Part shown: piece after piece, positions 12,399 through 28,592 of the stretch
How positions within the stretch are numbered: the first letter of the stretch is position 1
Layout: each line of letters starts with the position of its first letter
Assembly (NCBI RefSeq): GCF_001701045.1
Contig: NZ_CP016757.1
Span: 2,039,501 to 2,103,500, forward strand
Length of the DNA: 64,000 nt
Origin: Cloacibacillus porcorum
GTDB lineage: Bacteria > Synergistota > Synergistia > Synergistales > Synergistaceae
Direction: 5' to 3'
The notes under the pieces: generated by a model
Told to the model about the DNA's origin: nothing
Databases searched by the model: none
What the model saw: the letters and a program-made list of their open reading frames with translations, nothing else
Program-made: the position numbers and the translations under genes

Positions 12399-13346
12399 TT
12401 AAGCAGCGTTAAGTTTTCGGAGCAGCTCTCCGATCATCCGGTAGGACATCTGCTTCACCTTTGGCGGCACGACCGATTCACGGATGAGACCGCCGCCAGC
12501 TTTTATCTCTTTTACCGCCTCTTCAGTCCAGACTTCTGAGTCGGCGCTGCATTCGTCAAGCTGCCGCGATGACTTTTCTAAAACAAGCGGCGCCGGGGCG
12601 ACCGCTCCCGCGACGGCCATCGCCGGACGGGTTCCACCAGAGAGGCGCAGCGCGAAGTTCACGAGCGGGAAGTCGATCGACGAGCGAACGCTGTATTTCA
12701 GAAAACCGCTCTTTTCGCCCTCGGGCGGCAGCGGAATATGGAGCCTCACGAGCAGCGGGCCGCTTTCTTCGGCATATAGACCGTTCGCGGTGCTGTGCTC
12801 TGCGATCAGCTTCGTAACCGGCACTCTTTCCAGCCGCCCCTCTCTCAAGAGTTCCGCCTCGGCCTCGTAGAGTACTAACGCGGTGGCGGTGTCCGAGTAG
12901 TATATGGCACGACAGAACGGAGAGTTCCTGATTTGCAGGCAGACATCGCCGCCCGCCTTGAAGCACTTCGGCAGCGAACTGCGCCAGGAGGCGGACTGAT
13001 TGAAAAATATGCAGCGCCGGTCCTGCATAAGATTGCCGCCGATCGTACCCACGTTTCTTATCTGTAATGAGGCGGTCTTTTCGGCGCTTTGCGCGAGCGC
13101 TGGAAGGTATTGCAGGACCGCGGCATCTTCGGCGATCTCCGTGAGCGTCGCCGCCGCGCCGATCGATATCTCTTTATCGGAGAGGCTTACCCCGCAAAGT
13201 TCCGGAATATTCGTCACGTCGATCAGCATGGACGGGCTTTTAAGCCCCAGCTTCATCAGCGGCACGAAGTCTGTACCGCCCGCGATAAAACGCCCCGCAA
13301 GTTTTTGCTCCTCTATCTCCGCAAGGGATTTGATCTTTATATACAT
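12399..13346 (-). CDS. Molybdenum hydroxylase FAD subunit with an HcrB-like 4Fe-4S site (system A)
   Basis: A 315-aa FAD-binding middle subunit of the xanthine dehydrogenase/CO dehydrogenase family. FAD motifs are FIAGGTDFVP (20-29) and IRNVGTIGGN (96-105). Right after the second motif is a Cys-bearing insert with cysteines at 112, 128, 136 and 145. Their spacing (16, 8, 9) equals what I recall for Cys122/138/146/155 of 4-hydroxybenzoyl-CoA reductase beta, which hold an extra 4Fe-4S cluster. The insert ends YYSDTATAL, like that family. This suggests a low-potential, possibly reductive, enzyme rather than a plain dehydrogenase. It is the last gene of the operon, 9 bp after the large subunit. 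The equivalent subunit of system B (21566) lacks the insert. Confidence 0.87.
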   Translation of the reverse strand: MYIKIKSLAEIEEQKLAGRFIAGGTDFVPLMKLGLKSPSMLIDVTNIPELCGVSLSDKEISIGAAATLTEIAEDAAVLQYLPALAQSAEKTASLQIRNVGTIGGNLMQDRRCIFFNQSASWRSSLPKCFKAGGDVCLQIRNSPFCRAIYYSDTATALVLYEAEAELLREGRLERVPVTKLIAEHSTANGLYAEESGPLLVRLHIPLPPEGEKSGFLKYSVRSSIDFPLVNFALRLSGGTRPAMAVAGAVAPAPLVLEKSSRQLDECSADSEVWTEEAVKEIKAGGGLIRESVVPPKVKQMSYRMIGELLRKLNAA

Positions 13347-13355
13347 TTTTTCGCC

Positions 13356-15599
13356 TCACTCCGTCACATTCGGCAGCACGAGGAACTCCTCGCAGAGCGG
13401 CAGCCTGCTTATCTCGCGCCCGCTCGCGCGCGACACCGCGTTCACTATCGCGGGCGCGATTGGTACCGTGCTTAGTTCACCAACGCTCTTCGCGCCGCAG
13501 GGACCCACTGGCTCGTAGCCGTCGGCGATGAGCGCGTGGATACGCGGCAGGTCGGAGGCCAGCGGTATCTTATAGTGCAGCAGGTCTGTGGAGAGCGGCT
13601 TTTTCGCGATATTATTTATTTCGATCTGCTCCGTCAGCGTGTAGCCAACTCCCTGCGCCGCGCCGCCCTCGATCTGCCCCTCCACCGTCAGGGGATTGAT
13701 CGGCGTCCCCACATCCACCGCCTCGATGAGATGCAGCAGGCGTACCGCGTTTATGCTCCGGTGGTACTCCGCCTTAACCATGCAGACGGAGAACGGGTTG
13801 GGACAGGCGTCGGCCTTGTAGCATCCCCTGCCGATTATGACGCCGCCGCGCTGGTGGAACATAGCCAGCTTCACCGCCGCCCGGAAATCCAGCTTTTCCT
13901 TTCCGATGAAAAAGCTCCGGTCACAGAGCGACACCATCTCGCCGGAGAGCTCCGAGAGCAGCTTTTTCAGCGATTCATAGACGTCGAGGCAGGCGCGGCG
14001 AACCGCGGTGCCGCAGATGAAGGTCTGGCTGCTGCCGAAGGTCCCTGTGTCGTAGGGCGTGATCTTTGTGTCGGCGGCCGCTATCGAAACCTCCGCGAGC
14101 GGAATGCCAAGCGTCTCGGCGGCGATCTGCGAAAGCATCGTCTCGCTGCCTTGGCCGATATCCGCGGAGCCGACAAGCAGTTCGACGCTGCCGTCGCTGT
14201 TGACGTTCACGACCGCGGAGCTCAGCCCCTCTTTAGAGGAAGGGCCGGAGCCGTGGCAGGCAAAAGCCACGCCCCAGGCCTGAGTGATCTCGCCATCGTC
14301 GGTAACGCCCTCGGCCGCGTCTATCTCCTCGCGTTTTTCAAGGCAGAGCCGCACACATTCTTTTATTTCACAGCTCGTGACGGACTGCTCCGAACCAGGG
14401 AAATGGCCGCCGACCGCCACATGGTTTTTGAGACGCAGCTCCACCGGGTCGAGACCGAGCCTGAGCGCGAGCCGGTCTATCATCACCTCACGCGCGAAGG
14501 CGAGCTGCATGTTGCCGTATCCCCGGAACGCCCCCGCCGTCGCATGGTTGGTGAGCACGCATCTGCCGTCAAAAAAGTAATGCGGGATGGCGTACTGAAA
14601 TTTTCTCGCGCCTGCGCAGAGGACGGTCGGCCCGTGCGTCGTGTAGGGGCCAGTATTCAGTTTATAGTCTGCGTAGAAAGCCGTCATGCTGCCGTCGTTC
14701 ATAGCGCCAAGGCGCACGCTGGCGGAGGCTCCGTGCCTCACGACGGTGGAGGTCAGCTCCTCTTCGCGGCTGTTGACGATCTTGACCGGACGTTTGAGCT
14801 TCCGCGACAGGAGCGCGGCCACCGGCTGCGAATGAAGCTGCTGGCGCGCGCCGAAGCCACCTCCGACAGCCGGTTTCACGATGCGTATCCGGCTTTCAGG
14901 GATGCCCACAAGCTCACTGATTATCCGCCGCTCCTGAAATACGGTCTGCGAATTACTCCATATCGTAAGCTCGCGCCCGTCGCTGAAGTCACAGATACAT
15001 ACGGTGGGTTCGATCGCCGTATGCTGCATTGGAGGAATAAAAAAACTGCCCTCAATAACGATATCCGACTGTTTAAAGCCTTCGCCGGTGTCGCCCTCTT
15101 TGACCTCCCTCTTCCAGATAACGTTGTCTTCCGAGAGATGCGGCTGAAGCGGCTCCGCCCCCTTTTTCAAAGCTTCGTCTATCGTAAAAAACGGGCTTTG
15201 CGGCCTGTATTCCAATATCACTTTCTCACAGGCCTCGCGGCAGGCCTCGGGCGTCTCCGCCGCTATGCAGAGTATCCTGTCACCCGCGCACTTCGGCTCT
15301 TTCGTAAGGATTTTTTCATCCTTCAGGAGCAGCGCGGAGGGCGGGTTCCCCGAACAGTTATACAGTGTATCCGGCACTTCGTCTGGCAGCAGCGCCCCGA
15401 CATAGCCCGGTACGGATTCCGCGGCGCTCAGGTCTATCCCGGTAACGACGGCGCGCGCGTAAGGGCTTCTGACGACGGCGGCATATACCATTCCGGGCAG
15501 CGTCATATCGTCGGTATAAACTGCCTGCCCCGTCAATTTCTCTTTCGCCTCGAGCCGCACCACCGGATGTCCGACAACGGCAAAGTTCCTCTCCATCAT
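13356..15599 (-). CDS. Molybdenum hydroxylase large (molybdopterin) subunit (system A)
   Basis: A 747-aa catalytic subunit of the xanthine dehydrogenase family. Conserved blocks are GQAVYTDDM (substrate-domain start), VGGGFGAR (Mo-pterin loop), GAFRGYGNMQ, GSADIGQGSETML, VGTPINPLTVEGQIEGG and CGAKSVGE with the active-site Glu at 708. It should bind the Mo-pyranopterin cytosine dinucleotide cofactor and add or remove oxygen at an electron-poor carbon, with electrons passing through the 2Fe-2S and FAD subunits. The start ATG (15599) overlaps the stop of the 2Fe-2S gene by 4 bp. The substrate is not readable from sequence; the operon context points to an imidazole- or acrylate-type intermediate. 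Confidence 0.9.
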   Translation of the reverse strand: MMERNFAVVGHPVVRLEAKEKLTGQAVYTDDMTLPGMVYAAVVRSPYARAVVTGIDLSAAESVPGYVGALLPDEVPDTLYNCSGNPPSALLLKDEKILTKEPKCAGDRILCIAAETPEACREACEKVILEYRPQSPFFTIDEALKKGAEPLQPHLSEDNVIWKREVKEGDTGEGFKQSDIVIEGSFFIPPMQHTAIEPTVCICDFSDGRELTIWSNSQTVFQERRIISELVGIPESRIRIVKPAVGGGFGARQQLHSQPVAALLSRKLKRPVKIVNSREEELTSTVVRHGASASVRLGAMNDGSMTAFYADYKLNTGPYTTHGPTVLCAGARKFQYAIPHYFFDGRCVLTNHATAGAFRGYGNMQLAFAREVMIDRLALRLGLDPVELRLKNHVAVGGHFPGSEQSVTSCEIKECVRLCLEKREEIDAAEGVTDDGEITQAWGVAFACHGSGPSSKEGLSSAVVNVNSDGSVELLVGSADIGQGSETMLSQIAAETLGIPLAEVSIAAADTKITPYDTGTFGSSQTFICGTAVRRACLDVYESLKKLLSELSGEMVSLCDRSFFIGKEKLDFRAAVKLAMFHQRGGVIIGRGCYKADACPNPFSVCMVKAEYHRSINAVRLLHLIEAVDVGTPINPLTVEGQIEGGAAQGVGYTLTEQIEINNIAKKPLSTDLLHYKIPLASDLPRIHALIADGYEPVGPCGAKSVGELSTVPIAPAIVNAVSRASGREISRLPLCEEFLVLPNVTE

Positions 15600-16075
15600 C
15601 TTGCCCCTCCGCCAAGTCTTTCGGCGGCGAGCTTCACCGCCTCTTCTATCTTCGTATAACCGGTGCAGCGGCAGAGGTTTCCCGAGAGAGCTTTGCGTAT
15701 CTCATCCGACGACGGCGCCGGATTTTTATCGAGCAGAGCCTTCGCCGAGAGCACCATTCCGGGGATACAGTAGCCGCACTGAACGGCTCCAGCGTCATAA
15801 AAGGCCTGCTGTACAGGATGGAGCTCAGTTCCTTTCGTTAACCCCTCTATGGTGACGACCGACCTGCCGTCGGCCTGGACGGATAAGTAAGAGCATGAGT
15901 TTACCGGCTGGCCGTCAAGGAGCACGGTACAGGCGCCGCACTCACCGCTGTCGCAGCCGCGCTTGCATCCTTCCAGTCCGGCCTTTACGCGTATCGTATC
16001 CAGCAGCGTCTCATCTTCGGAGACCGCAAAAGAACAGCTCTCTCCGTTCAGGAATATCTCTATTTTGTAATCCAT
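15596..16075 (-). CDS. Molybdenum hydroxylase 2Fe-2S subunit (system A)
   Basis: A 159-aa small subunit with the two standard [2Fe-2S] domains. The plant-ferredoxin-like cluster is CKRGCDSGECGACTVLLDG (residues 37-55) with a further Cys in PVNSC. The C-terminal helical cluster is CGYC...CRCTG. It carries electrons from the Mo site to FAD. It is the first gene of the small-large-medium set and is separated from the upstream lyase gene by 98 bp, which shows no clear promoter or terminator, so read-through from the BCCT-lyase genes is likely. Confidence 0.93.
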   Translation of the reverse strand: MDYKIEIFLNGESCSFAVSEDETLLDTIRVKAGLEGCKRGCDSGECGACTVLLDGQPVNSCSYLSVQADGRSVVTIEGLTKGTELHPVQQAFYDAGAVQCGYCIPGMVLSAKALLDKNPAPSSDEIRKALSGNLCRCTGYTKIEEAVKLAAERLGGGAR

Positions 16076-16173
16076 AACTCTCTTCCTCGCAAAATAAAAT
16101 CTTGCCGTATAAAGCCAAGGGGCATGGACGGAACCGCCCCGCCCCCTTCGTAACAGTTATCTTTTGCGGATGC

Positions 16174-17691
16174 TTACCGCGCCTCGCCAACGCTCCTGAG
16201 GAGTGCCGCGCTCTTGACGAACTCGTAAGCCTTTTTGACATCAGGCGCAAGCGGACGGTCGTTGGTGTAAAGCGGAAGCTCCTTACGGAACGCCTCATAC
16301 GCGGCGGCCGTGCCTTTGCCAAGGTTGAATTTCCCCTGCCGTTTACGGAGCTCTATCGCCTGGCAGGCATGAATGAGCTCCATTCCATATATGTACTGGA
16401 GATTTTTCACGATCTGACGCAGATGCTGCACGACCAGCGGCGTGTTGTTCGCGTGGTCCTCTATCGAACCGGAGAGCGAGAGGTAGTCTACTGAGCATGG
16501 GTTTGAGAGATGGCGTATCTCCGTGTCGAGAGAGGCGAAGCATTTCTGTATCGTTCCGAAGCAGTGCGACTGACCGCCGTCATGGCTCAGGAAACGGGGC
16601 AGTTTCGTCAGCTCCGGATTCACCAGTCTCAGCATCCGATAGCAGGACATACGCGACACGTGGCTCAGGACGATGGAGAGCATCTCTATGGCCGTGGCAA
16701 GTGTCGTAGTCTCAAAATTGGAATTTGAGATGATCCGCCTCTCGTCAAGCAGCAGACAGGGGTTGTCATCCGTGCTGTTCATCTGTATGAAGAGGTATTT
16801 CTGGGCGTATTCAAGCGCGTCGCGCAGCGAGCCGTTGATATAGGCAGCGCCCCTGAAACAGAGAGGGTCCTGTACTGGCTTTCCGGGATAGGTTCCGTAG
16901 ATGTCGCTGCCCGCGAGATATTCGCGCATCCGTTCCGCGCTCTTCGCCTGCCCCTCCATCTTACGCGCCGCCATAACGCCGGCCTCAATCGGCGAGGTGT
17001 TGCCGTTGAAGCCTTCAAGCGACAGGCAGGATATTATGTCCCCCATGTCAACGAGCTCCCGCAGCTCTTTTATTGCCAGCGCCGCCTCACCAGCGGAAAA
17101 GGCGCTGGAGCTGACGATCGCAAGCCCGTCCTTCGGGCCGAGCACAACCGGATCAAGTCCGGCGAGCTTGTGCGCCTCGGCGGAGCTCATCCGGCGTCCC
17201 TTATAATTGGCCTCTCCTTCGCCGATCATCACTAGGCCGATATGCGCGAGCGGCGTCAGGTCACCCTCGCCGACGGAACCCTTTTCGGGAACTACGGGGT
17301 GCAGTCCCGCGTTCAGCAGCTCAGCATAACGGCGCGCGACCGCCGGCTGTATCCCGGTATAGCCGAGCAGCAGGCAGTTGAGCCTGACGGCCATCATCGC
17401 ACGTACCTCGGCCTCGGATGCCTCGGGCTCTACGCCGAAAGAATGGCAGTAGATGAGCTTGCGGTTGAAATCCTCAAAAAACTCTTTCGCTATTTTATGG
17501 TCTTTGTTCCAGCCGACCCCGGTATTGAAACCATAGACGGGGACGTCGGCGTCTACCAGTTCGTATACCAATTTACGCGCGGCTTCGAGCTTTGCCTCGG
17601 CCTCGGGGCTGATCTCCACCTGCGCTCCGTTTACCGCAATCTCCCATACGTCGCTGACAGTCAGGTCGTTTCCCGTAAGAACTATTTTCAT
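16174..17691 (-). CDS. Full-length HAL/PAL-like lyase without MIO triad; ergothionase candidate
   Basis: A 505-aa protein, collinear with HAL over its whole length. It has YGFNTGVG (53-60), GSVGEGDLTPLAH (138-150), KDGLAIVSSS (187-196), PVQDPLCFR (272-280), STDDNP (306-311), NSNFE (323-327) and SGSIEDHANN (407-416). HAL has GSVGASGDLAPLAH, so the MIO serine is gone and one residue is deleted; HAL Asn195 in LING is Ser, and Tyr280 of QDAYSLR is Leu. Tyr53, Arg280 and Glu411 are retained. Ergothionase, which eliminates trimethylamine from ergothioneine, is a HAL-family enzyme I recall as working by acid-base chemistry without MIO. The adjacent BCCT betaine carrier, 24 bp upstream, supports that role. 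I chose ATG at 17691 over the TTG before it because GAGAGGGGA is spaced correctly. Confidence 0.8.
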   Translation of the reverse strand: MKIVLTGNDLTVSDVWEIAVNGAQVEISPEAEAKLEAARKLVYELVDADVPVYGFNTGVGWNKDHKIAKEFFEDFNRKLIYCHSFGVEPEASEAEVRAMMAVRLNCLLLGYTGIQPAVARRYAELLNAGLHPVVPEKGSVGEGDLTPLAHIGLVMIGEGEANYKGRRMSSAEAHKLAGLDPVVLGPKDGLAIVSSSAFSAGEAALAIKELRELVDMGDIISCLSLEGFNGNTSPIEAGVMAARKMEGQAKSAERMREYLAGSDIYGTYPGKPVQDPLCFRGAAYINGSLRDALEYAQKYLFIQMNSTDDNPCLLLDERRIISNSNFETTTLATAIEMLSIVLSHVSRMSCYRMLRLVNPELTKLPRFLSHDGGQSHCFGTIQKCFASLDTEIRHLSNPCSVDYLSLSGSIEDHANNTPLVVQHLRQIVKNLQYIYGMELIHACQAIELRKRQGKFNLGKGTAAAYEAFRKELPLYTNDRPLAPDVKKAYEFVKSAALLRSVGEAR

Positions 17692-17715
17692 CAAAAATAT
17701 CCCCTCTCTCCCGAG

Positions 17716-19287
17716 TTATTCCTGGACTTTATCCACGAAGAATACTTTGACAAAGGCGACAACCTGTACGGCGAAGATGAAGAGCACTACGAAACCGGCT
17801 GCCGCTGCAAGCGCTTTGACACCGTCGACGCCCTGCGCGCCGCCGCCGAAGGCCGCCATAATTATCGCGACAATACCGACGGAGATACCCCATATCATCT
17901 TCATCTTTGCCGGAGGCTCCGTCCCGATGGGGACGTCGCGCACGCACATCGAGCCGATGTTGGTGAGCGTCGCGTCGGCGCAGGTGATGAAGGAGGCGAG
18001 GATTACCAGAATATTTACCGGCAGCACGACATAGCCGATTCCGAACGGCAGGTGCTTGAGGAATTCCCAGAGCGCCATGACCGCGCCGCCGCTGTTGATC
18101 GCGCCGACAAGGTCCGCCGCGCCGGTCGCCTGCATGTGCATCGCGCTCGCACCCCAGATGGCAAACCAGATGATGCCGAATATCGACGGAAGGACCCAGT
18201 TGACAATCATGTATTCACGCACCGTCCTGCCGTATGAAAGCATGGCAAGGAAGATGCCGGTAACGGGGGCGTAGCCGACCCAGAAGGCCCAGTCAAAGAG
18301 CGTCCATGAACGGGTGAGCGCCGCGCCGCCGATATCGATCGGGTCAAGGCCCCAGAGCCAGAAGTTGTGCATCCAGGTGGCGAGCCCCGCCGTGCCTATC
18401 CTGAGTATGTAGAGCGTCGGCCCGGTGACGAACAGCAGGACGATAAGCCCGTAATAGAACCAGGCGTTGAGGCTGCCTATTATCTTCAGCCCCTTGTCGA
18501 GGCCGACATATGTCGAGAAGGTAAAGGCGAAGATGATCGCCACGCCGATGCCGATAAAGAGCGGCAGGCTTTCGGCGATACCGTAGGCGCTTTTGAGCCC
18601 GGTGACGGTTAGCGTGATGCACATCGTAAGCCCCGTAGCGAGGCCGATCGTCAGCGCTAGCATCGAAAGGGTGTCAATGACCGCCGAGGCTACTGGGGTC
18701 GTGATTTTGTCGCCAAAGAGCGGTTTCAGCGTCGCGGTTACCGTGAGGCTCCCCCTCTTATGGTAATAGATATAGGCGACGAGCAGGCCGCACATCGCGT
18801 AGATGGCGTAAGGTATAAAGGTCCAGTTATAGTATGTACGGGCCATCGCGAAGATCGCCGCGTTGGTCGTTCCCGGCTCGATTCCGAGGGTGTTCAGCTC
18901 CCCCCAGACGTTGCCGAAGTAAATTACAGGCTCGTTGACGCCCCAGGTGACGATCCCCGTCGCAATACCGCCGGTGAGCGCCATCGCGAACCAGGTCCAG
19001 AAACCGTACTTTGGCTTGGCGTCTTTGCCGCCTATCCTCATGCTGCCGATCTTTGAGAAGCAGGTGACGAATGCGACAAGGACAAAGCTCGCCATGATCG
19101 AGATCTGATAGAGCCACCCGAAGCTGTCGAGAGACCAGAAGAAGAACATGTTGCTGGCTTTCGTGAGCATATCTTTGTTTACGATGCCGACGATGGCCGC
19201 CACCGCGACTACGAGGTAGGCGGGAATAAATACCTCCCAGCGTATCGCCCTCTTCATATCCTCGTTTGAAGACTTTCCAGAATCCAT
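17716..19287 (-). CDS. BCCT-family betaine/carnitine/choline transporter
   Basis: A 523-aa inner-membrane carrier with about 12 hydrophobic segments beginning after a 15-residue cytoplasmic N-terminus. Family signatures are GGIATGIVTWGVNEPV (around residue 107, the glycine-rich unwound helix) and FDWAFWVGYAP...SYGRTVREYM (around 325-350, the Trp-rich substrate-box helix and following loop). BCCT proteins take up quaternary ammonium compounds by Na+ or H+ symport or by exchange. It lies directly upstream of the ergothionase-like lyase in the same run, so uptake of the lyase's betaine substrate, or exchange against a product, is the natural reading. Which betaine cannot be decided from the sequence. 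The long C-terminal osmosensing tail of BetP is absent. Confidence 0.9.
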   Translation of the reverse strand: MDSGKSSNEDMKRAIRWEVFIPAYLVVAVAAIVGIVNKDMLTKASNMFFFWSLDSFGWLYQISIMASFVLVAFVTCFSKIGSMRIGGKDAKPKYGFWTWFAMALTGGIATGIVTWGVNEPVIYFGNVWGELNTLGIEPGTTNAAIFAMARTYYNWTFIPYAIYAMCGLLVAYIYYHKRGSLTVTATLKPLFGDKITTPVASAVIDTLSMLALTIGLATGLTMCITLTVTGLKSAYGIAESLPLFIGIGVAIIFAFTFSTYVGLDKGLKIIGSLNAWFYYGLIVLLFVTGPTLYILRIGTAGLATWMHNFWLWGLDPIDIGGAALTRSWTLFDWAFWVGYAPVTGIFLAMLSYGRTVREYMIVNWVLPSIFGIIWFAIWGASAMHMQATGAADLVGAINSGGAVMALWEFLKHLPFGIGYVVLPVNILVILASFITCADATLTNIGSMCVRDVPIGTEPPAKMKMIWGISVGIVAIIMAAFGGGAQGVDGVKALAAAAGFVVLFIFAVQVVAFVKVFFVDKVQE

Positions 19288-19331
19288 AAGAACATCCTCC
19301 TTTGTTTTTATAATAAAGAGCCGGTTGCTCC

Positions 19332-21575
19332 CTATTTACATTTTGCCGCCGCCGCGATCTTCGCCGGCGTCAGCGGCAGCTCCGTGAGCGACGTTCCGAG
19401 CGCGCGGTTGACAGCGTTCACCACCGCGGCGGTCACTGGTACGGTGCAGACTTCGCCGATGCTCTTCGCCCCGAAGGGGCCGCCGGGCTCGCCGTCCTCA
19501 ATGAGCATCACCTCTACCTCCGGCATATCCGGAGCGTTTACCATGTGATATTTGTCAAAGTTATCCGCCTTCGGTATTCCCTCGGCGCTGTAATCAAGCT
19601 CTTCGCAGAGGGCCATGCCGATGCCCATCTGCACGCCGCCGTATATCTGTCCCTCAACAAAGCTGCGGTTGATAGACTGGCCGATGTCGTGCGCCGCAAG
19701 GTAGCGGTCCACCTTCACAAGGCCGGAGAGCCTGTCGACCGTTACCTGCGCGAAGTGTACCCCAAAAGAGGCGGGGTTGTTCTCCGGGGCGTGTTCGTAA
19801 TGGGCCTCGATCGAGCAGCGCTTTTCGCGCATTATGCGCCGCACCGCTTCGCCGATCTCTATTTTATCTCCGCCCGCGGCGAGGACGCCGTCGTGAAGCT
19901 CCACGGAGGTGTCGTATATCTCGGAGGCCTTCGCGCAGAGCAATTTAACCGCCTCCTCGGAGACGAGGCGCGCGCATTCGCCGCAGACGTAGATCACGCG
20001 GCTGGCCTGGCATCCGGCGTCGTAGGAGCTGAAGTTCGTATCGCCTTCGGTGACGGTGATCCGCGAAATATCTATCCCCGTCGTCTCGGCGACGATCTGG
20101 GCCAGCGCAGTCGTCGTTCCGTTGCCGAGCTCGTGGATCGCCGTGCGCAGGATCGCCGAACCATCCTCAAGGATACGCAGAGACATCTGCGTCATATCAT
20201 GGTATATGGTCTTGTAGTAACCGTTGCCGTGCGTACAGCAGGCAAAGCCCGCGCCGGTGGCGTAGCGTCCGTCGGCACTCAGCCGCGGCTCGCGGCATTC
20301 GTCCCAGCCAAAGCGCCGCGCTCCCTCTTCGAGACATTCGATGACGCGGGCGTGGCCGATATTCGACGCGCCGCTGGGGTCGGCGTCGCCGTCGTGCACA
20401 AGGTTTTCAAGGCGGAAGCGCAGCGGGTCGAGGCCGAGCCTGCGGCACATAAGGTCCGTGTGGATCTCGGTTATCGTGTGGATCTGCGGCGAACCGTAGC
20501 CGCGGCAGGCGCCCGCCGGAGTCGTGGAGGTGCGCACTGTGCGTCCCTCAAAGCGCAGCGCCGGAATGCGGTAGAGGCGCGAAGCCTTTTTCCCCATCGC
20601 CATCATCACCTTTTTCGTTCCGGTCAGGTAGGCTCCGGCGTCGGCCGTTATGTCGAATTTACGCGCGAGGATACGTCCCTCGCCGTCGAGCGCCGTCGTG
20701 ACGCGGCCAAGCGCCGCAGCGCGCGTGCGCGTCGCGGCCATCGTCTCGCCGCGGTTCGTGTTGATAAATACGGGACGGCGCAGCTTCCAAGCAGCCCAGG
20801 CGCAGAGAGGTTCAAAGACGCTCTCTTGTTTGCCGCCGAAGGTCCCGCCCATGTTCGCCTTGATGACGCGGATCTTCGAAAGCGGCAGAGGCAGCACCTG
20901 CGCCACCGCGTGCTGTACGCCGAAGATTATCTGGCAGGGCGTGTGGATCTCGATAACCCTTTCCGGGCGCGGAATGGCGAGGACGCAGTGCGTCTCCATC
21001 GCCGCGTGATGTATCTTAGGCGTGTATATTACGTCGCTTTCGATGTGCGCGGCGGCGGCGAAAGCGCCCTCGACGTCGCCGTACCCGAGGCTGCCGGGGA
21101 AGGAGCGCTGTCCATCCTCATGGAGCATATGCGCCATCTCCTGCGCCTCGCTCAGGCTGACGACCGCGGGGAGCGGCTCGTACTCCACACTTATCTTTTG
21201 CAGCGCAGCGCGGGCGCTCTTTTCGTCTTCCGCAAGGACAAGGCCGATGCGGTCGCCCACGTGACGCGCGTGTCCCGTGAGGACCGTCTCGTCACGAAAA
21301 TCGTTCTGTCCGGGGAACCATTCGCCGCTGTTGTATTTATTGTCCGGCGCCTCCCTGAAGGTCAGTATCGTCACGCCCTCAATCTTTTCCGCCTCCGCGG
21401 TATCGATCTCCTTTATGAGCGCGTTGGCCCGCGTGCTGAGAAGCGGGATGCCGACCAGCGTGTCCTGCGGCAGAGAATCGGCGAGATAGTCATACCTGCC
21501 GCGTACCTTATCGGCGGAATCTTCGCGGATCACCCGTTTGCCAATATACTTAAACTCATCTTTTTTCATCTGCAT
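19332..21575 (-). CDS. Molybdenum hydroxylase large (molybdopterin) subunit (system B)
   Basis: A 747-aa catalytic subunit, the same length as system A but clearly diverged. Motifs are GRYDYLADSL near the N-terminus, NMGGTFGGKQ (Mo-pterin loop), GACRGYGSPQ, HELGNGTTTALAQI, IGQSINRSFVEGQIYGG and FGAKSIGE with the active-site Glu at 708. The start is the ATG at 21575, inside the end of the FAD gene, because GGAGGAGG lies 5 nt before it; the longer reading adds 12 unlikely residues. It overlaps the upstream FAD subunit by 10 bp. The gene order is small-medium-large here but small-large-medium in system A, so the two systems are not a simple recent tandem copy. Confidence 0.9.
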   Translation of the reverse strand: MQMKKDEFKYIGKRVIREDSADKVRGRYDYLADSLPQDTLVGIPLLSTRANALIKEIDTAEAEKIEGVTILTFREAPDNKYNSGEWFPGQNDFRDETVLTGHARHVGDRIGLVLAEDEKSARAALQKISVEYEPLPAVVSLSEAQEMAHMLHEDGQRSFPGSLGYGDVEGAFAAAAHIESDVIYTPKIHHAAMETHCVLAIPRPERVIEIHTPCQIIFGVQHAVAQVLPLPLSKIRVIKANMGGTFGGKQESVFEPLCAWAAWKLRRPVFINTNRGETMAATRTRAAALGRVTTALDGEGRILARKFDITADAGAYLTGTKKVMMAMGKKASRLYRIPALRFEGRTVRTSTTPAGACRGYGSPQIHTITEIHTDLMCRRLGLDPLRFRLENLVHDGDADPSGASNIGHARVIECLEEGARRFGWDECREPRLSADGRYATGAGFACCTHGNGYYKTIYHDMTQMSLRILEDGSAILRTAIHELGNGTTTALAQIVAETTGIDISRITVTEGDTNFSSYDAGCQASRVIYVCGECARLVSEEAVKLLCAKASEIYDTSVELHDGVLAAGGDKIEIGEAVRRIMREKRCSIEAHYEHAPENNPASFGVHFAQVTVDRLSGLVKVDRYLAAHDIGQSINRSFVEGQIYGGVQMGIGMALCEELDYSAEGIPKADNFDKYHMVNAPDMPEVEVMLIEDGEPGGPFGAKSIGEVCTVPVTAAVVNAVNRALGTSLTELPLTPAKIAAAAKCK

Positions 21576-22408
21576 CCGGCCTCCTCCGCCCGCCTTCCCA
21601 GCAGTACGCATATATCCTGCGCGAGCGCGCGCAGCGCCGACTGTTTGTAGGGCAGCGTAGATCTTCCCGGTATCGCCTCGGCGGCGAGCCCGCAGAGCTC
21701 TTCCGGCAGTTTTTGCGCGAAATTAGGCGTATTGAGCGCTGCCTCCGCGCCGGCGCACCTTCTCGCTGCCGCGCCCAGCGTTCCCACATAGACCCGCGCC
21801 TCTTTATAAAGGCCGTTTTCGCGGCGCGCGGAGACGGCGATGTTTATTCTGGAGATGCTGACCTGGCTGCGGCTGCCGATCTTTAAGAAGGCCGATATCC
21901 GTCCATCGTCAGCGGGAATGAGAAACTCCTTGATGATCTCGCCCTCGGAAAGGCTGTTTTTGTTTCTTCCCACAATCTCCTCGACGGAGGCCCGCCGCTC
22001 TCCGCAGGGTGAGGCGATGACGACCGCCGCGCCCAGCGCGGCAAGCGGCGCGGGGGTATCCGCGGCGGGAGAGGCGTTCGCAACATTGCCGCCGACGGTG
22101 GCGCGGTTCCTTATCTGTTCGGAGCCCATCACATAGGCGGCGTCGGCCAGAGCCGCGGCGTATCTGCGCACGATGTCGCTGCCGTGCAGCGCCGTCATCG
22201 TCTCCATCGCGCCGATGCGAAGATATCCGCCTTCAACGGAAATGCCCCTCAATTCGGCTATCCGCGAGATATCGGCCACCGCCGCGCCGGGGGCGAGCTT
22301 TCCGTGGTTCTTTATTATCCAGTCGGTGCCGCCCGCGAGAAATTCCATTCCCGGACGGTATGCCGAAAAGAGTTCTTCCAAAGTGCAGGGACGTTCGAGA
22401 CCGCTCAT
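21566..22408 (-). CDS. Molybdenum hydroxylase FAD subunit (system B)
   Basis: A 280-aa FAD-binding subunit of the CoxM/XdhB type. It has FLAGGTDWI near residue 23 and SEQIRNRATVGGNVANASPAAD near 95-117, the standard FAD-contacting stretch with ASPxxD. It has no 4Fe-4S insert, in contrast to the system A equivalent, so electron flow here should be the usual 2Fe-2S to FAD oxidation. The start overlaps the stop of the 2Fe-2S gene (ATGA-type), showing translational coupling. Confidence 0.9.
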   Translation of the reverse strand: MSGLERPCTLEELFSAYRPGMEFLAGGTDWIIKNHGKLAPGAAVADISRIAELRGISVEGGYLRIGAMETMTALHGSDIVRRYAAALADAAYVMGSEQIRNRATVGGNVANASPAADTPAPLAALGAAVVIASPCGERRASVEEIVGRNKNSLSEGEIIKEFLIPADDGRISAFLKIGSRSQVSISRINIAVSARRENGLYKEARVYVGTLGAAARRCAGAEAALNTPNFAQKLPEELCGLAAEAIPGRSTLPYKQSALRALAQDICVLLGRRAEEAGCR

Positions 22409-22878
22409 CTATCCCCGCCTCCCAGCAGCGCCGCCGCCTTTTCAACGGCATTCACGATGGGGATGTATCCCGTACAGCGGCAGATGTTGCCCGCGAGCGC
22501 ACGTTTGATATCGTCGCGGCTCGGGCGGGGATTTTTCAGCAGCAGGGCCTTGGCGGACATTATCATGCCGGGGGTGCAGAAGCCGCACTGCACGGCGTCG
22601 CAGTCGATAAAGGCCTGCTGTATCACGTCAAGTTCGCCGTTTTTCTCAAGCCCCTCGATCGTCGTCACCGAACAGCCGTCGGCCTGAACGGCGGGCACAA
22701 CGCAGGAGCAGACGGCCTCGCCGTCGAGCAGCACCGTACAGGCGCCGCACTCCCCCGCGCCGCAGCCCTCTTTCACGCCCGTGAGTCGGAAGTTGCCGCG
22801 CAGCATATCGATCAGCCGCGTGTCGGCGTCGACCTCCGCCGTTTTTGTCTCTCCATTAAGGTTCAATGAAATCCGCAT
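22405..22878 (-). CDS. Molybdenum hydroxylase 2Fe-2S subunit (system B)
   Basis: A 157-aa subunit with CGAGECGACTVLLDG and the C-terminal CGFCTPGM...CRCTGY clusters, as in all small subunits of this family. A GAGGAGAG site precedes the ATG. The 82-bp gap to the upstream lyase alpha-2 stop has no obvious terminator, so it probably belongs to the same transcript as the lyase pair. Confidence 0.93.
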   Translation of the reverse strand: MRISLNLNGETKTAEVDADTRLIDMLRGNFRLTGVKEGCGAGECGACTVLLDGEAVCSCVVPAVQADGCSVTTIEGLEKNGELDVIQQAFIDCDAVQCGFCTPGMIMSAKALLLKNPRPSRDDIKRALAGNICRCTGYIPIVNAVEKAAALLGGGDR

Positions 22879-22960
22879 TATTCTCTCCTCGTAATAACCA
22901 ACACATCGAAGCCACCTGCCGGTATCCGCACGGCGGGGCTCCGTTCCGCAAACGCCGCGA

Positions 22961-24064
22961 TCAGAGCGCCAGGAGTTTTCCCGTCAGCTCCACGGCGTAG
23001 TAAAACTTACGGGCGGCGGTGAAGCTGAATTCCACATGGTCCTCCTGACCGCCCTTCGTCGGTATGGAATCCGCGCTCACCTGCATGGCGCAGGTTTTTA
23101 TCTTATTCAGCAGGTGGCGGGCCTCGCTCTTCGCAAGGCCGCCGGTCTTTTCATGGAGGCCGTTCGCCAGCTCGGCAATGACGGTGTTCATCATGTCCAT
23201 CGCGTAGCCGACCTGCGTATTGCTGCAGTTGCAGCCCATCACCGCCTCATAGCCGCCTTCGGGCAGTTCAAAGAGCAGCGGGTTGTCGCAGGAGATATTG
23301 TTTTCCCTGTTAAGAACGCCCTTCGTGAAGCCTATGACCTCGCGGCAGCCCTCATAGAACTCAGGCAGCTCCCCGCCGGAGGAAAGACGCGCCTCGATCC
23401 CCGCCGACAGCTCCTCAAAGCGCAGGAAGGCAAGCACAGCGATCGCCTGCGTCATCGTCGAACCGTTCATCTGCGCAAGGACCTCTTTGCATTCAAGCGT
23501 AAAGCTCTCCGCCAGTCCCGCAAGGCGCAGCGCCTCACGCGAGGGGAGAAGATTTCCGCGATAGTAGGCCTTCGCCTCGTCGAGCCCCGCTACCGTCATA
23601 ACGTTCTGCGCGAGCGGCCCTAGGTCGGAGAGTCCCGTCGAGCCCTCGCTGTGCACGGCTGGCGCGACCTTGGCGTTATATATGGAGAGTATCCTCTCAA
23701 TAAGCTCAGGGCGCACGCCGCTGTAACCACGCGCAAGCACGTTGGCGCGCAGCAGCAGCGAGGTCAGCGTCACTTCGGGCGGCAGATATTCCCCCATACC
23801 CGCGGCGTGCGGATACGGCAGGGTCTTGTTCCATTCGATATGTTTTTCGGGCGGCACCACCACGTCTTTGAGATTGCCGAGGCCAGTGTTGACGCCGTAG
23901 ACTACGGGAGCGTCCTTCTCCATCCAGCGGTCGATCTGAGCGCGCGTGGCGCGGCAGCGCGCGGAGGCCTCTTCGGAGAGAGCTACCCGCGCCTCTTTAT
24001 CGGCCGTTATCCGGCCGATCATGTCCAGTGTAAGGCTGTTTCCATCTATATAGTAAAGACTCAT
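22961..24064 (-). CDS. HAL/PAL-like lyase, alpha component, MIO triad absent (copy 2)
   Basis: A 367-aa paralog of the protein at 2387. Key segments sit at the same numbering: YGVNTGLG (56-63), GSTGLSDLGP (141-150), QMNGST, CDNPLLF, GCNCSN and DSIPTKGGQEDHV near the C-terminus. Again the MIO Ala-Ser-Gly is replaced by Leu-Ser with the Gly missing, and Phe of the HAL GGNFHG segment is replaced within a GCNC pattern. Conservation of these departures in both copies argues for selected function rather than decay. It lies 15 bp downstream of beta-2 and upstream of Mo system B. Confidence 0.82.
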   Translation of the reverse strand: MSLYYIDGNSLTLDMIGRITADKEARVALSEEASARCRATRAQIDRWMEKDAPVVYGVNTGLGNLKDVVVPPEKHIEWNKTLPYPHAAGMGEYLPPEVTLTSLLLRANVLARGYSGVRPELIERILSIYNAKVAPAVHSEGSTGLSDLGPLAQNVMTVAGLDEAKAYYRGNLLPSREALRLAGLAESFTLECKEVLAQMNGSTMTQAIAVLAFLRFEELSAGIEARLSSGGELPEFYEGCREVIGFTKGVLNRENNISCDNPLLFELPEGGYEAVMGCNCSNTQVGYAMDMMNTVIAELANGLHEKTGGLAKSEARHLLNKIKTCAMQVSADSIPTKGGQEDHVEFSFTAARKFYYAVELTGKLLAL

Positions 24065-24079
24065 CGCTGCCGCTCCCCT

Positions 24080-25360
24080 CTATCTGAGCCCGCCGACAGT
24101 TGCTTCGACGGCTTTCAAAACTTCACCGCTCGTAATGAAACGGTCCGCCTCGTTCATATCCGGCGAGACAAAGCGGTTCTCGGTCATCATCGCAATCTTT
24201 TCGCGCACCTTATCTTTAGCGGCCGCCGTTCCTAGGCCAAATGAGAGCTCAGGGAGCCTCTCTTTGACGATATCCATTCCCTGGCAGGCCATCAGCAGCT
24301 CTATCGCCATCACTTTGGACAAAAGCGGCAGCGCCCGCAGCATCTTGCAGGCCGCGTAATAGGCGGCGCATTCGCCGGGGGCCTTTACGACTGCGCTGGG
24401 CAGCACAAGCAGCTTCAGCTCGGCGACCAAAGCCGCCTGGTTCGACTGCACCACGGGGAAGCCGTGGTTAAGCCCCGTAGCGCCGTGAGTGAGGTTCATC
24501 GGCAGGCCGTACGAAAGACGGCTGTCGTTGAGCCGGAAGGTGCGGCGTTCGCAGATGTGCGCCAGATCGGCAAGGGCCGTCTCCAGGCCGTCAAGCGCGT
24601 ATTCGGCGCCGTAACCGCTGCCGCCCTCCAATATCGCCCTCTCCACCACATCTTCGGCAAAGTAGCAGACGTCTCTAGCGCCGCCGTGCGTCTGCGGCGT
24701 GGCGCGGACGCAGATCGCGTCCTGCACGCGCGGATGGGTATCATAGCCGAAGGCATAGCGCCCCTCGTCCGTGGTCATCCGGCTGCCATCGACAAGACGG
24801 CGCACATTCGACGCGCAGTCTATCTGCCCAGGGAAGGGACGCGCGACAGAAGAGAGACGGTCGTCGAAGGCTCCAAGCTCGCCGCGGATCGCCTCGAGGT
24901 TGAGAGCCACGGCGATGTCCGCAACTTTCATATACTCATGGGCCTTGGATACGGCATACCACGCGATGCCGTTTACCACGCAGCGGCTCTTCGCGACAAA
25001 CTCCCAATCTTCGGGGAGAGCGCCCACAGACGACAGATGTCCGAAGAGCTCCGCCAGCAGCAGCTCCTCGGAGTTTGTCTCGTAGTGGAGCGACGGCGAG
25101 TCATCCGCGCACAGCATCTTTTCCAGCGCGGAGGCCAGTCTGTTTTCTTTGCATATAAGAGTTTCAAAATAAAGAAGAGATATGACGCGCTTCGCCGCCT
25201 CAAGCGGCAGTACGGAACAGGAAAGATCAAGCATCTTCTTCGCTTCGCTGAACGAGAATCCCTCGGCCATGCGGCGCGGAGGCCGAGATTTCGCCGCTGC
25301 CTGCCGTACGGACTCCGGCGTAAATCCGGAAGATACGATCGTTTCAAGACAATTTTGCAT
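24080..25360 (-). CDS. HAL/PAL-like lyase, beta component (copy 2)
   Basis: A 426-aa paralog of the protein at 3509, about 15 residues longer at the N-terminus. It has NLEAIRGELGAFD, ARPFPGQIDCASNVRR, RVQDAICVRATPQTHGG, CERRTFRLNDSRLSYG and LNHGFPVVQSNQAA in the same order as beta-1. TSERR of beta-1 is ICERR here. As in beta-1, the Tyr loop, MIO loop, DNP and QEDHV segments are absent and supplied by alpha. It is the first gene of the 13-kb minus-strand run and is divergent from the second BTAD regulator. The ATG has AGGGGGAC upstream. Confidence 0.8.
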   Translation of the reverse strand: MQNCLETIVSSGFTPESVRQAAAKSRPPRRMAEGFSFSEAKKMLDLSCSVLPLEAAKRVISLLYFETLICKENRLASALEKMLCADDSPSLHYETNSEELLLAELFGHLSSVGALPEDWEFVAKSRCVVNGIAWYAVSKAHEYMKVADIAVALNLEAIRGELGAFDDRLSSVARPFPGQIDCASNVRRLVDGSRMTTDEGRYAFGYDTHPRVQDAICVRATPQTHGGARDVCYFAEDVVERAILEGGSGYGAEYALDGLETALADLAHICERRTFRLNDSRLSYGLPMNLTHGATGLNHGFPVVQSNQAALVAELKLLVLPSAVVKAPGECAAYYAACKMLRALPLLSKVMAIELLMACQGMDIVKERLPELSFGLGTAAAKDKVREKIAMMTENRFVSPDMNEADRFITSGEVLKAVEATVGGLR

Positions 25361-25622
25361 AGCAGTGTCCCCCTTTTATAGATCCCGCCGCCCTCCGCCG
25401 CGGCAGAGCCGAAAACGGAAACAACGACGGGGCAAACTCTATTTTTAATTAAACTTCGGCTGAATTTACACACTTTTCTGTCCGTTTACATTCTACTCCG
25501 GCCCCGTCAATCAAACGTCAAAGTTTTATAAAAATATATAAGGACGTACGGCATACGTTTTTACGTCATACTATTATCCTGATATAATCTAAATAATTGC
25601 GGAAACGGAAGAGGGCGAAGAT
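25361..25622. promoter_or_regulatory. Divergent control region of the catabolic operon and regulator 2
   Basis: A 262-bp gap. For the rightward regulator a good candidate promoter is TTTACG (25560-25565), 17 bp, then TATAAT (25583-25588). Just upstream, 25541-25568 holds overlapping ACGTA/TACGT elements (GGACGTACGGCATACGTTTTTACGTCAT) with dyad symmetry that could be an operator. AT-rich stretches (TTTTTAATTAAA near 25441) could serve the leftward operon. No element is obviously shared with the gap at 4745-5048. Confidence 0.5.
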
Positions 25623-28592
25623 GTGAAATTAAAGATATCGCTGCTTGGAAACAGTTTGATCGAATATGAGGGAAAAAGGATTGCGTTCAAGCTCCACAAG
25701 GCGGAGGCATTACTGTACTATATCGCGCTGAACAAAGAGGTGACACGCGACGAACTGAAGGCCGTATTCTGGTACGATAAAAACGAGTCACAGGCCTCGG
25801 CAAACCTCAGAAACGCCCTCTATCTTATAAACAACATCATGCCGGAGGCGCTCGACGTAGACCGGAGAACCGTTACGATCCGCCCCTTCGACGACGATAT
25901 AAGAGGTCTCGGCGCCGTCACCGACCCTAAGATACCAATTCCCTCCGCCGTCTACGCCGCTCCGCTTAAAGGTTTATCGTCACTGAATTCCCCCGCTTTC
26001 AGCGAATGGCTGGAGGCCGCTAGAGGCAAGATCAGGGAGGGACTCATCGAGCTGATAAAGAAACGCATTGAGGCGGCCTATGAGGCGCAGAACAACGAAG
26101 CGCTCGGCGAATCGCTGGCCGCCCTCCTCAGACTGGACCCCTTCGACGAGGACTCCGTGCTTGAGCTGATGGAGCTCTATTCAAATATGGGTCAGGACAG
26201 GCGCGCCGCGGAGCTGTTCCAGAGTTATTCGTCACTGCTCAGCTCAAAGCTGGCAATCGCCCCCTCGGAGAGGGCAAAGAAATTTTACGCGAAGATCGTC
26301 GGACGCCGCGGCAAAAAAGAGGGGCAGCAAAGATTCTGGTGCCGTGAGCGGGAGCTTGCGCTGCTCTCGGAGAAACTCGCCGACGCCGCCCCCTGCCTGC
26401 TTTTCATACACGGCGAGGCCGGTATTGGAAAATCAACGCTCATAAACGAGCTTCTCTCAACGACGCCAGCGGATGATATCTCCCTGCTCTCCACCAAAGC
26501 CACGGCCATCGGCGGTAACTACGCCTATTCCTCGTGGAACAACATCCTCCGGGAGCTGCGCCTCCTTCTGGACAGGGAGGGGGCCGCGCCCGACAAGAGG
26601 ACCGCCTCGATGCTGGCGGGGATATCGCCAGGATTCATAAAAGACGAAGGGCTCTCCTTCAACGCCGATATCTCAAGTATGACGGAGATAAACCCCGTCG
26701 CGCTCGGCGCGATGATCGCCGACCTCGTTGCCGTTATTGCTAAAAACAGACCAGTAGTGATGGTCTTCGAGGACATCCACTGGTTTGATACGCGCTCCAT
26801 CGAACTCCTCTGCGCCTTTCTCTCCTGCGCGCCGCGGGCGGATATAATCATCTCCGGACGTCCGGAGTCCGCACGGATGACGATGGCGATGCTCCGGCAG
26901 GCAAAGAGCGGACGCGCGATCACCGAGGTGGAGCTGACGCCCTTCCGCGACGAAGAGATAATATATATAAGCCGCAGCCTGCTTCCCGAGAGCACGATCC
27001 GTGAGCGCGGCCTTTCGTATTTTGTCCGCGAAAGCGAGGGCGTGCCGCTCATGCTCTTTGAGATACTGCGTACTCTGAGGGAAAACCCCGGCTCCGACTG
27101 CACGAAGGGGCTTGGAGGCCTCATAATCGAGCGCATGGGCGAGCTGGACCAACGCGAGCGCGACGTGCTGAACGCAGTCGCCGTATGCGTCGGCGGAACA
27201 TCGGAGATCATCTCCGAGATAACGCTGATACCGATAGAAGAGACATTGGCCGCCGCAGAGCTGCTCATCTCCAAAGGCCTCATCCGCGAACGTGAGGGGT
27301 CCGGCGGCGCCGTCTGGGAATTTACCCATCTCAAACTGCGTGAATGCGTCTACGACTCTATCCCCGCGGCGCGGCGCCGCGAGCTCCACCGACGCGCCGC
27401 CGCCGCGCTCAACAAGAGATATCTGCCTCAGCACTGGGACCCCGCGCTCAGCGCGATGCTGAGCCACCATTACGCGAAGGCGGGAGAGCGGGTGCTGGAG
27501 CTGAAACAATACCTGCGTGAGCTTATCTTCGACATCACGCTCAATCACGACCTCTTTCCTATGCTCTCCGACCGCCTGTTCCTCTCATGCTCCATACCCT
27601 TCAGCAGCCGCGAAGAGACGGACAAGAAGGTGGAACATGCGATCTCCATATTGGACGAGCTGAGAGGTTCCGAGGCGCTCACCGAGAGGGAATACGCACA
27701 GCTGGAGGCATCATGCTTCGAACTGGCCGGCGGTTACCGCATCAGCTGGGGAGAGTACACCGGCGCTAAGCTCTATACGGACGAGGCGATACATATCTCA
27801 AAACAGTACGGCTTTACCGAGACTCACATACACTGCCTCAAACATTACGCCTATATGTACCTCCAGATCGAAGAGGCGGATAAACTGATAAAGGTTTCCC
27901 GCGAATTGCTGCGCCTCGCCAAGGAGGCCCCTGCGCCGCACTATTTCGCCACGGCGGTGCGTTTCATCGGCATGGGGTACATGATGAGGGGAAATTACGC
28001 GGCGGCGGAAAAGATATTCCTTCACTCCGTCAAGCTCTTTGAGCAGATGCAGCTGACCGGCAGGAGATACACCCTCGGAATGCTTGTCGCCAAATGCTAC
28101 CTCGGGGAGATCTACGAGCGAACCGGCGACCTGGAGCGGGCGGCGGCGCAGCTCTCCGAATGTACGCGGCAGTGCGAGGCGATGAATCTTTATTGGGGAA
28201 GAAGCTACTTTCACACCACCGCCGCAAACATCGCGCTTGACGCGGGAAATATGGAGGGGCTCTTCTCCCACATAGACCGGGCGGCGGCCCTCTTTGAAAG
28301 CTGCCGCGGCGGCCGCTGCGGATCGATACTGTACAGCACCAAGGCCATCGCAGACGCGGAGCGCGGCGATTTTGAGGGCGCTCGCAAGGCGCTTGAGAAC
28401 TCGGAGCTGCTTCTGCGCCTTATCGCAAAGCGCGACTGGATCGCCGCCCATAACCTGGCTAAGGCCTGGACGGCGCGTCTGAGCGGCGGGGATTTTTCCG
28501 GCGACGCCATGACGGCGGCAAAGCAGTACGGGGAGAACGGTTTCCCGCTGCGCGCCGACTGGATAAGAAAAAAGTTCGGCCTCGGCGGGTAA
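25623..28592 (+). CDS. BTAD-AAA-TPR transcriptional regulator (copy 2)
   Basis: A 989-aa paralog of the regulator at 5049. An N-terminal winged helix (FKLHKAEALLYYIAL; SANLRNALYLINNIM) and a BTAD domain extend to about residue 230. An ATPase follows with Walker A GEAGIGKS (264-271) and Walker B VFEDIHWFD (acidic pair 383-384). C-terminal TPR-like helices complete it. The GTG start is preceded by GAGGGCGAAG. It is divergent from the lyase-Mo-BCCT operon, mirroring regulator 1 with lyase pair 1, and probably activates that operon in response to substrate or nucleotide state. The two regulators may cross-regulate. Confidence 0.85.
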   Translation: MKLKISLLGNSLIEYEGKRIAFKLHKAEALLYYIALNKEVTRDELKAVFWYDKNESQASANLRNALYLINNIMPEALDVDRRTVTIRPFDDDIRGLGAVTDPKIPIPSAVYAAPLKGLSSLNSPAFSEWLEAARGKIREGLIELIKKRIEAAYEAQNNEALGESLAALLRLDPFDEDSVLELMELYSNMGQDRRAAELFQSYSSLLSSKLAIAPSERAKKFYAKIVGRRGKKEGQQRFWCRERELALLSEKLADAAPCLLFIHGEAGIGKSTLINELLSTTPADDISLLSTKATAIGGNYAYSSWNNILRELRLLLDREGAAPDKRTASMLAGISPGFIKDEGLSFNADISSMTEINPVALGAMIADLVAVIAKNRPVVMVFEDIHWFDTRSIELLCAFLSCAPRADIIISGRPESARMTMAMLRQAKSGRAITEVELTPFRDEEIIYISRSLLPESTIRERGLSYFVRESEGVPLMLFEILRTLRENPGSDCTKGLGGLIIERMGELDQRERDVLNAVAVCVGGTSEIISEITLIPIEETLAAAELLISKGLIREREGSGGAVWEFTHLKLRECVYDSIPAARRRELHRRAAAALNKRYLPQHWDPALSAMLSHHYAKAGERVLELKQYLRELIFDITLNHDLFPMLSDRLFLSCSIPFSSREETDKKVEHAISILDELRGSEALTEREYAQLEASCFELAGGYRISWGEYTGAKLYTDEAIHISKQYGFTETHIHCLKHYAYMYLQIEEADKLIKVSRELLRLAKEAPAPHYFATAVRFIGMGYMMRGNYAAAEKIFLHSVKLFEQMQLTGRRYTLGMLVAKCYLGEIYERTGDLERAAAQLSECTRQCEAMNLYWGRSYFHTTAANIALDAGNMEGLFSHIDRAAALFESCRGGRCGSILYSTKAIADAERGDFEGARKALENSELLLRLIAKRDWIAAHNLAKAWTARLSGGDFSGDAMTAAKQYGENGFPLRADWIRKKFGLGG

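Follow-up and report, generated by a model that had tools for sequence, protein, structure and literature searches.

Two alpha-beta gene pairs and the run headed by the second

The window, the whole 64-kb stretch of DNA analysed here, comes from a gut-type anaerobe and carries two gene pairs; all four products match PF00221 (aromatic amino acid lyase). In pair 2, the first gene is beta2 (24080-25360, minus strand, 426 aa; PF00221 E 4.2e-49, 168 bits), followed after a gap of 15 bp by alpha2 (22961-24064, minus strand, 367 aa; E 1.8e-72, 245 bits; cut-off 27.3 for both). Pair 1 consists of beta1 (3509-4744, minus strand), 51% identical to beta2, and, 12 bp further on, alpha1 (2387-3496, minus strand), 56% identical to alpha2. 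The beta-then-alpha order, the short spacing and the motifs GSTGLSD, GCNCSN and QDAICVR, which the earlier note had described for copy 2, were all confirmed by the open reading frames and alignments, and the motifs are present in both copies. A transposase-like ORF (10694-11638), IS256-like by eye, lies between the pairs. No Rfam RNA family was detected in the window.

Pair 2 also heads a 13-kb run, as previously noted; the run spans 12399-25360 and contains ten genes, all on the minus strand. Behind alpha2 lie the FeS (22405-22878), FAD (21566-22408) and molybdopterin (19332-21611) subunits of a xanthine-dehydrogenase-type enzyme and a BCCT betaine/carnitine/choline-type transporter (17716-19287), each assigned by family match. 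The next gene (16174-17694), which the earlier note on copy 2 leaves unmentioned, encodes a single-chain lyase identified by sequence match and tree as an ergothionase orthologue; its product scored 500 bits against the Treponema denticola ergothionase (6s7j), with the runner-up chain at 254. The remaining genes encode a second Mo-hydroxylase, assigned by homology: an FeS subunit (15596-16075), whose homologues match the same ORFs as those of 22405-22878, a Mo subunit (13356-15599) and an FAD subunit (12399-13346).

A divergent promoter region (25361-25622) separates beta2 from reg2 (25623-28592, plus strand), a BTAD/AAA (STAND-type) regulator of the run recognised by family match and homology. 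Copy 1 likewise has a divergent regulator (5049-8105, plus strand), which is homologous to reg2 over its full length and 25% identical to it. The contrast drawn earlier, between a solitary copy 1 with a regulator to itself and a copy 2 heading the run, therefore fell away as far as regulators go, since copy 2 too faces a divergently transcribed member of that regulator family. The promoters of copies 1 and 2 had no exact 10-mers in common. The promoter block AAAACTTTGACGTTTGATTGACGGG before beta2 is identical in the sister species, and a block resembling it precedes xdhS in the relative G169, whose cluster is without alpha-beta. In G169 the run and reg2 are present with no pair at the head, and pair 2 is located elsewhere, as though the pair had been inserted in first position in a pre-existing operon or had dropped out of that of G169. 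The gene immediately upstream of pair 2 in G169 encodes a family 1 encapsulin shell protein (L018:9130-9930).

Division of the HAL residues between alpha and beta

The sample comprised 23 alphas and 23 betas: the two pairs of the window, four from two relatives, and 17 loci obtained by scanning about 85,000 species genomes. The scan found pairs in Cuneatibacter, Dethiosulfatibacter, Acidaminobacter, Tissierellales, Paenibacillaceae, Lawsonibacter, Pseudoflavonifractor and Devosia, so that about 23 beta-then-alpha pairs are distributed over Firmicutes, Synergistota and Devosia. Beta preceded alpha at every locus, with gaps from -38 to +27 bp. Under strict E-value limits the carriers were rare (3 of 188 Synergistota, 6 of 396 Paenibacillaceae, and 1 of 391 in the class of Dethiosulfatibacter). 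The viral contigs searched yielded no relatives; on the plasmids searched, all matches were below 60% identity and the best ones were single-chain hutH-type proteins. None of the curated models describes a split alpha-beta enzyme, and a literature search for heteromeric or MIO-independent ammonia-lyases found none. A few loci were irregular. The alphas of Lawsonibacter (L036:543-2172) and Pseudoflavonifractor (L037:1016-2711) are without the first 192 residues and sit right behind the beta stop. The Devosia alpha (L038:9989-11247) consists of two ORFs with a TGATG stop-start overlap, which may be a natural split, a frameshift or an assembly error. In Cuneatibacter the pair is followed immediately by a second alpha, which is frameshifted (L022:11158-12247).

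We mapped the residues of both proteins to HAL numbering. Tyr53, His83 and Asp145, together with an extra Lys, were present in all 21 alphas that have that region, Asn195 in 23/23 and Glu414 in all 22 that cover it. The betas contributed Gln277, Asp278 and Arg283 (23/23). The two sets do not overlap: alpha is without the 277-283 segment, and beta is without Tyr53, the MIO loop and Glu414. The equivalents are Y56 (Tyr53), H86 (His83), N200 (Asn195), E341 (Glu414) and the additional Lys66 in alpha2, and Q213 (Gln277) and R219 (Arg283) in beta2. In Geobacillus kaustophilus HAL, whose active sites are each built from three chains of the homotetramer, mutating the equivalents of Tyr53, His83, Asn195 or Glu414 abolishes activity, whereas mutating those of Gln277 or Arg283 merely reduces it (PMC11432326). 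These four essential residues are exactly the set retained by alpha.

The Ala-Ser-Gly MIO triad is missing from alphas and betas alike. The alpha loop reads GSTGLS-D (21/21) and is one residue shorter than the HAL GSVGASGD, so MIO cannot form. Two further departures are Phe329 to Cys (22/23, in GCNCSN) and Tyr280 to Ile (23/23). The unusual residues noticed in the two copies of the window thus recur in essentially all other pairs; as every full-length pair from other bacteria shows the pattern, it is not a chance feature. Against the hutH equivalog, alpha2 and beta2 scored 208 and 149 bits, under the cut-off of 539. The genome (3.585 Mb, single contig) holds six further PF00221 members, all single-chain. 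Three of them are also without the MIO triad, having GVVGALS, GSVGYLD and GSVQYLA in its place (L003-L005; G000:C1:3467283, 3516351, 430498), an MIO loss unlike that of ergothionase.

AF2 models gave the HAL fold for alpha2 (pLDDT 82) and for beta2 (pLDDT 85), where it starts at about residue 33. The alpha2 model matched 7tqr (Z 32.6, 2.9 A, 338 residues aligned) and ergothionase (Z 31.9, 2.6 A, 351 residues) in a tie; the beta2 model matched 3kdz (Z 35.4, 2.5 A, 375 residues aligned). Low confidence in alpha2 was confined to residues 57-68 (Tyr/Lys loop), 143-146 (MIO loop) and 332-340 (Glu loop), as would be expected of these modelled loops if they became ordered in a complex only.

Selection, ancestry and genomic company

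Orthologues from both species of the genus were compared by the Nei-Gojobori method. The dN/dS values were 0.07 for alpha1, 0.12 for beta1, 0.11 for alpha2 and 0.14 for beta2, next to 0.064 for ergothionase and 0.107 for the Mo subunit xdhMo. The earlier note had inferred that both copies are under selection, and this was supported: the selection is purifying (orthologue dN/dS 0.07-0.14), and the unusual residues are conserved, so that neither of the refuting outcomes named in the note, relaxed selection or loss of the residues from other pairs, came about. The dN/dS between copies, its suggested check, could be computed, but it says little because dS (1.3-1.7) is near saturation.

The proposed phylogeny across genomes placed alpha and beta in one clade each, with matching internal order. 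Alpha and beta distances were correlated (r 0.95 over 19 complete pairs; none of 2000 permutations was as high), and with the matching trees this identifies the copies as old lineages inherited as pairs. A recent tandem duplication was ruled out, since alpha1 and beta1 cluster with Cuneatibacter, apart from alpha2 and beta2. Being old lineages, copies 1 and 2 possibly act on different substrates; the earlier note had proposed successive or stereochemically different ones. In a combined tree alpha and beta grouped together (97%); their sequences hint at a single duplication as the common origin, tentatively, because the N-terminal part of beta aligns poorly. Alpha, beta and ergothionase fell in separate clades. 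Descent of alpha from ergothionase, with the two in one clade, was rejected (p-AU 0.0016), a result to be taken with caution given the length of alpha's branch (2.17).

Ergothionase (at least 45% identity) was present in 14 of the 19 pair genomes, the exceptions being Devosia, three MAGs and Pseudoflavonifractor. The Lawsonibacter MAG and Pseudoflavonifractor, which have N-terminally deleted alphas, have no ergothionase. Devosia has a thiourocanate hydratase over the cut-off, plus desulfurase-, ErtD- and ErtE-like genes. It also has a divergent (28-32%) MIO-less ergothionase-like lyase (L103:8972-10531), which keeps the Lys (GVGAMKD) and sits beside an OsmF-type ABC transporter. Ergothionase occurs in 38 of 396 Paenibacillaceae genomes, which include all six pair carriers of the family (p 5e-7, phylogeny ignored), and in 26 of 188 Synergistota genomes, which include all three carriers there (p 0.002, phylogeny ignored).

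The pairs and ergothionase also share neighbourhoods. In Dethiosulfatibacter, Mo-hydroxylase-beta-alpha adjoins ergothionase and BCCT; a Clostridium MAG has the order regulator-ergothionase-Mo-hydroxylase-beta-alpha-hutI, and Acidaminobacter has Mo-hydroxylase-ergothionase-regulator-beta-alpha. Five Paenibacillus pairs adjoin an OsmF-type binding protein that shares 56-64% identity with its counterparts in ergothionase clusters, and the sixth adjoins a transporter/monooxygenase cassette whose members are 57-84% identical to ergothionase-cluster genes. In several anaerobes ergothionase comes with two kinds of xanthine-dehydrogenase-like Mo-hydroxylase (window 12399-16075 and 19332-22878; L077, L081, L083). 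No thiourocanate hydratase over the cut-off was found in the anaerobic pair genomes tested, and the Mo-hydroxylases possibly provide an alternative thiourocanate route in those anaerobes.

Several pair genomes already hold the ergothioneine pathway with a single-chain ergothionase. Away from its pair, P. radicis encodes a thiourocanate hydratase (1013 bits, cut-off 930), a thiohydantoin desulfurase (605, cut-off 440), ErtE (555, cut-off 520) and an ErtD-like protein (494, below the cut-off of 650). Since Paenibacillus has the Ert genes separately, the idea that the known ergothioneine pathway depends on the pair was rejected. Ergothioneine itself can be handled without the pair, which favours a parallel, chemically similar substrate.

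A probable heteromeric MIO-less lyase and its relation to known enzymes

Taken together, the split residues, the purifying selection and the mirrored trees make alpha-beta almost certainly an obligate heteromeric, MIO-less enzyme of the HAL fold. We give a probability of about 0.6 to the reading that the heteromer removes trimethylamine from an aromatic betaine in the manner of ergothionase. Its parts differ in strength. Alpha and beta very probably form a heteromeric complex, and a role in ergothioneine-related betaine catabolism is likely; trimethylamine elimination is favoured less firmly. Hercynine and ergothioneine derivatives are the leading substrate candidates; hercynine itself has less than even odds, with ergothioneine sulfonate or an S-methyl form as alternatives. 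The reading draws on the ergothionase-like loop and Lys, the neighbourhoods and the co-occurrence. Counting against it are the rejected alpha-ergothionase clade, the small share of ergothionase-specific residues, the single-chain ergothioneine pathway of several pair genomes and, in G169, the location of pair 2 away from the run.

In this model, the alpha2 and beta2 subunits would assemble on the HAL tetramer plan, probably as alpha2beta2, and the three-chain site of HAL would then predict two complete sites and two dead ones. The residues for acid/base chemistry and for recognising the ring would come from alpha, and the Arg that binds the carboxylate from beta. Without MIO, the enzyme is presumably not an ordinary ammonia-lyase. 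A betaine imported through the neighbouring betaine transporter would lose trimethylamine from its quaternary ammonium, as with ergothionase, to yield an acrylate of the urocanate type. The chemical reason for the loss of MIO may be that a trimethylammonium group leaves readily without activation and is unable to add to MIO. Pair 2 would head the ergothioneine/betaine run under reg2, and copy 1 would be a second, separately regulated version.

The strongest competing explanation places the heteromer further down the breakdown of ergothioneine or histidine, where, instead of releasing trimethylamine, it would hydrate or isomerise an intermediate such as (thio)urocanate. Pairs often come directly after Mo-hydroxylase genes, and before hutI in one MAG; urocanate is bound by HAL-fold sites, and the anaerobes with pairs show no thiourocanate hydratase over the cut-off. 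However, most Paenibacillaceae pair genomes and Devosia have that hydratase over the cut-off and yet keep the pair, some of the hydratase-bearing genomes have most or all of the Ert set, and a betaine substrate is suggested by the betaine-type binding proteins next to the pair. We consider this explanation unlikely. Slightly less probable still is that the pair serves as lyase or aminomutase for some other polar aromatic compound, an amino acid or a betaine derived from tyrosine or otherwise from histidine; the link to ergothionase would then be an incidental clustering of HAL-family catabolic genes. The His83 equivalent suits imidazole or phenol rings, copy 1 has no catabolic neighbour, and the G169 pair is alone beside the encapsulin gene; set against this, the ergothionase neighbourhood and co-occurrence recur in several phyla, and the family has no known route of ammonia elimination once MIO is lost. 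It is highly improbable that alpha and beta have no catalytic activity and are sensory, regulatory or decaying HAL relatives, for although MIO is gone and the Lawsonibacter and Pseudoflavonifractor alphas have decayed, dN/dS is 0.07-0.14, the pairs are inherited together (r 0.95), every essential HAL residue save MIO is retained once across the two subunits, and both N-terminally deleted alphas sit in genomes without ergothionase.

Within the preferred reading, a trimethylamine-releasing heteromer, a bolder version has slightly less than even odds: alpha-beta would be a second MIO-less trimethylammonia-lyase that evolved independently, when duplicates of an ancestral homotetrameric HAL lost complementary active-site residues; the resulting obligate heteromer, with fewer and composite sites, would open a betaine other than ergothioneine, such as hercynine or a derivative. 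HAL-family lyases are described as homotetramers with four identical sites (PMC11432326). A heteromeric branch of the family, with its catalytic residues divided between paralogues, would be a clear example of subunit subfunctionalisation. If the guess at the substrate is right, the pair would be an unrecognised enzyme by which gut bacteria break down ergothioneine or hercynine and produce trimethylamine; if the bolder version is right, a betaine other than ergothioneine would be a source of trimethylamine in gut and soil.

Alpha-beta has the same fold as the MIO-dependent HutH (PF00221), and Tyr53, His83, Asn195, Gln277, Arg283 and Glu414 of HutH each occur once across alpha and beta. HutH is one chain with an Ala-Ser-Gly MIO and four equal sites, whereas alpha-beta is two chains without MIO, with Phe329 replaced by Cys and Tyr280 by Ile. 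The fumarase/aspartase superfamily has the helical core in common, with weaker model matches (Z about 12 for alpha and about 17 for beta); its members use other catalytic residues and are single-gene enzymes.

A close parallel is ergothionase (ergothioneine trimethylammonia-lyase, T. denticola 6s7j), itself a HAL relative without MIO; divergent homologues of it may have gone undetected, according to a 2026 paper (PMC13405746). Like alpha-beta, it has the HAL fold, no MIO and a loop one residue short, and the two occur in the same genomic neighbourhoods. Lys63 of GxNKD is common to ergothionase and alpha (21/21 alphas covering the site), as is Asn76; at the Tyr280 position ergothionase and beta both have an aliphatic residue, Leu in the former and Ile in the latter. 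Unlike alpha-beta, ergothionase is one chain, keeps Phe329 and has Ser at the Asn195 position. Its specific Lys383 (T. denticola numbering) is missing from alpha and beta, and of 42 ergothionase-specific residues, defined by conservation alone, alpha has four and beta none. Judged by these residues and the trees, alpha-beta resembles ergothionase in several points without being one; it is a heteromeric, MIO-less variant, new within a known fold family.
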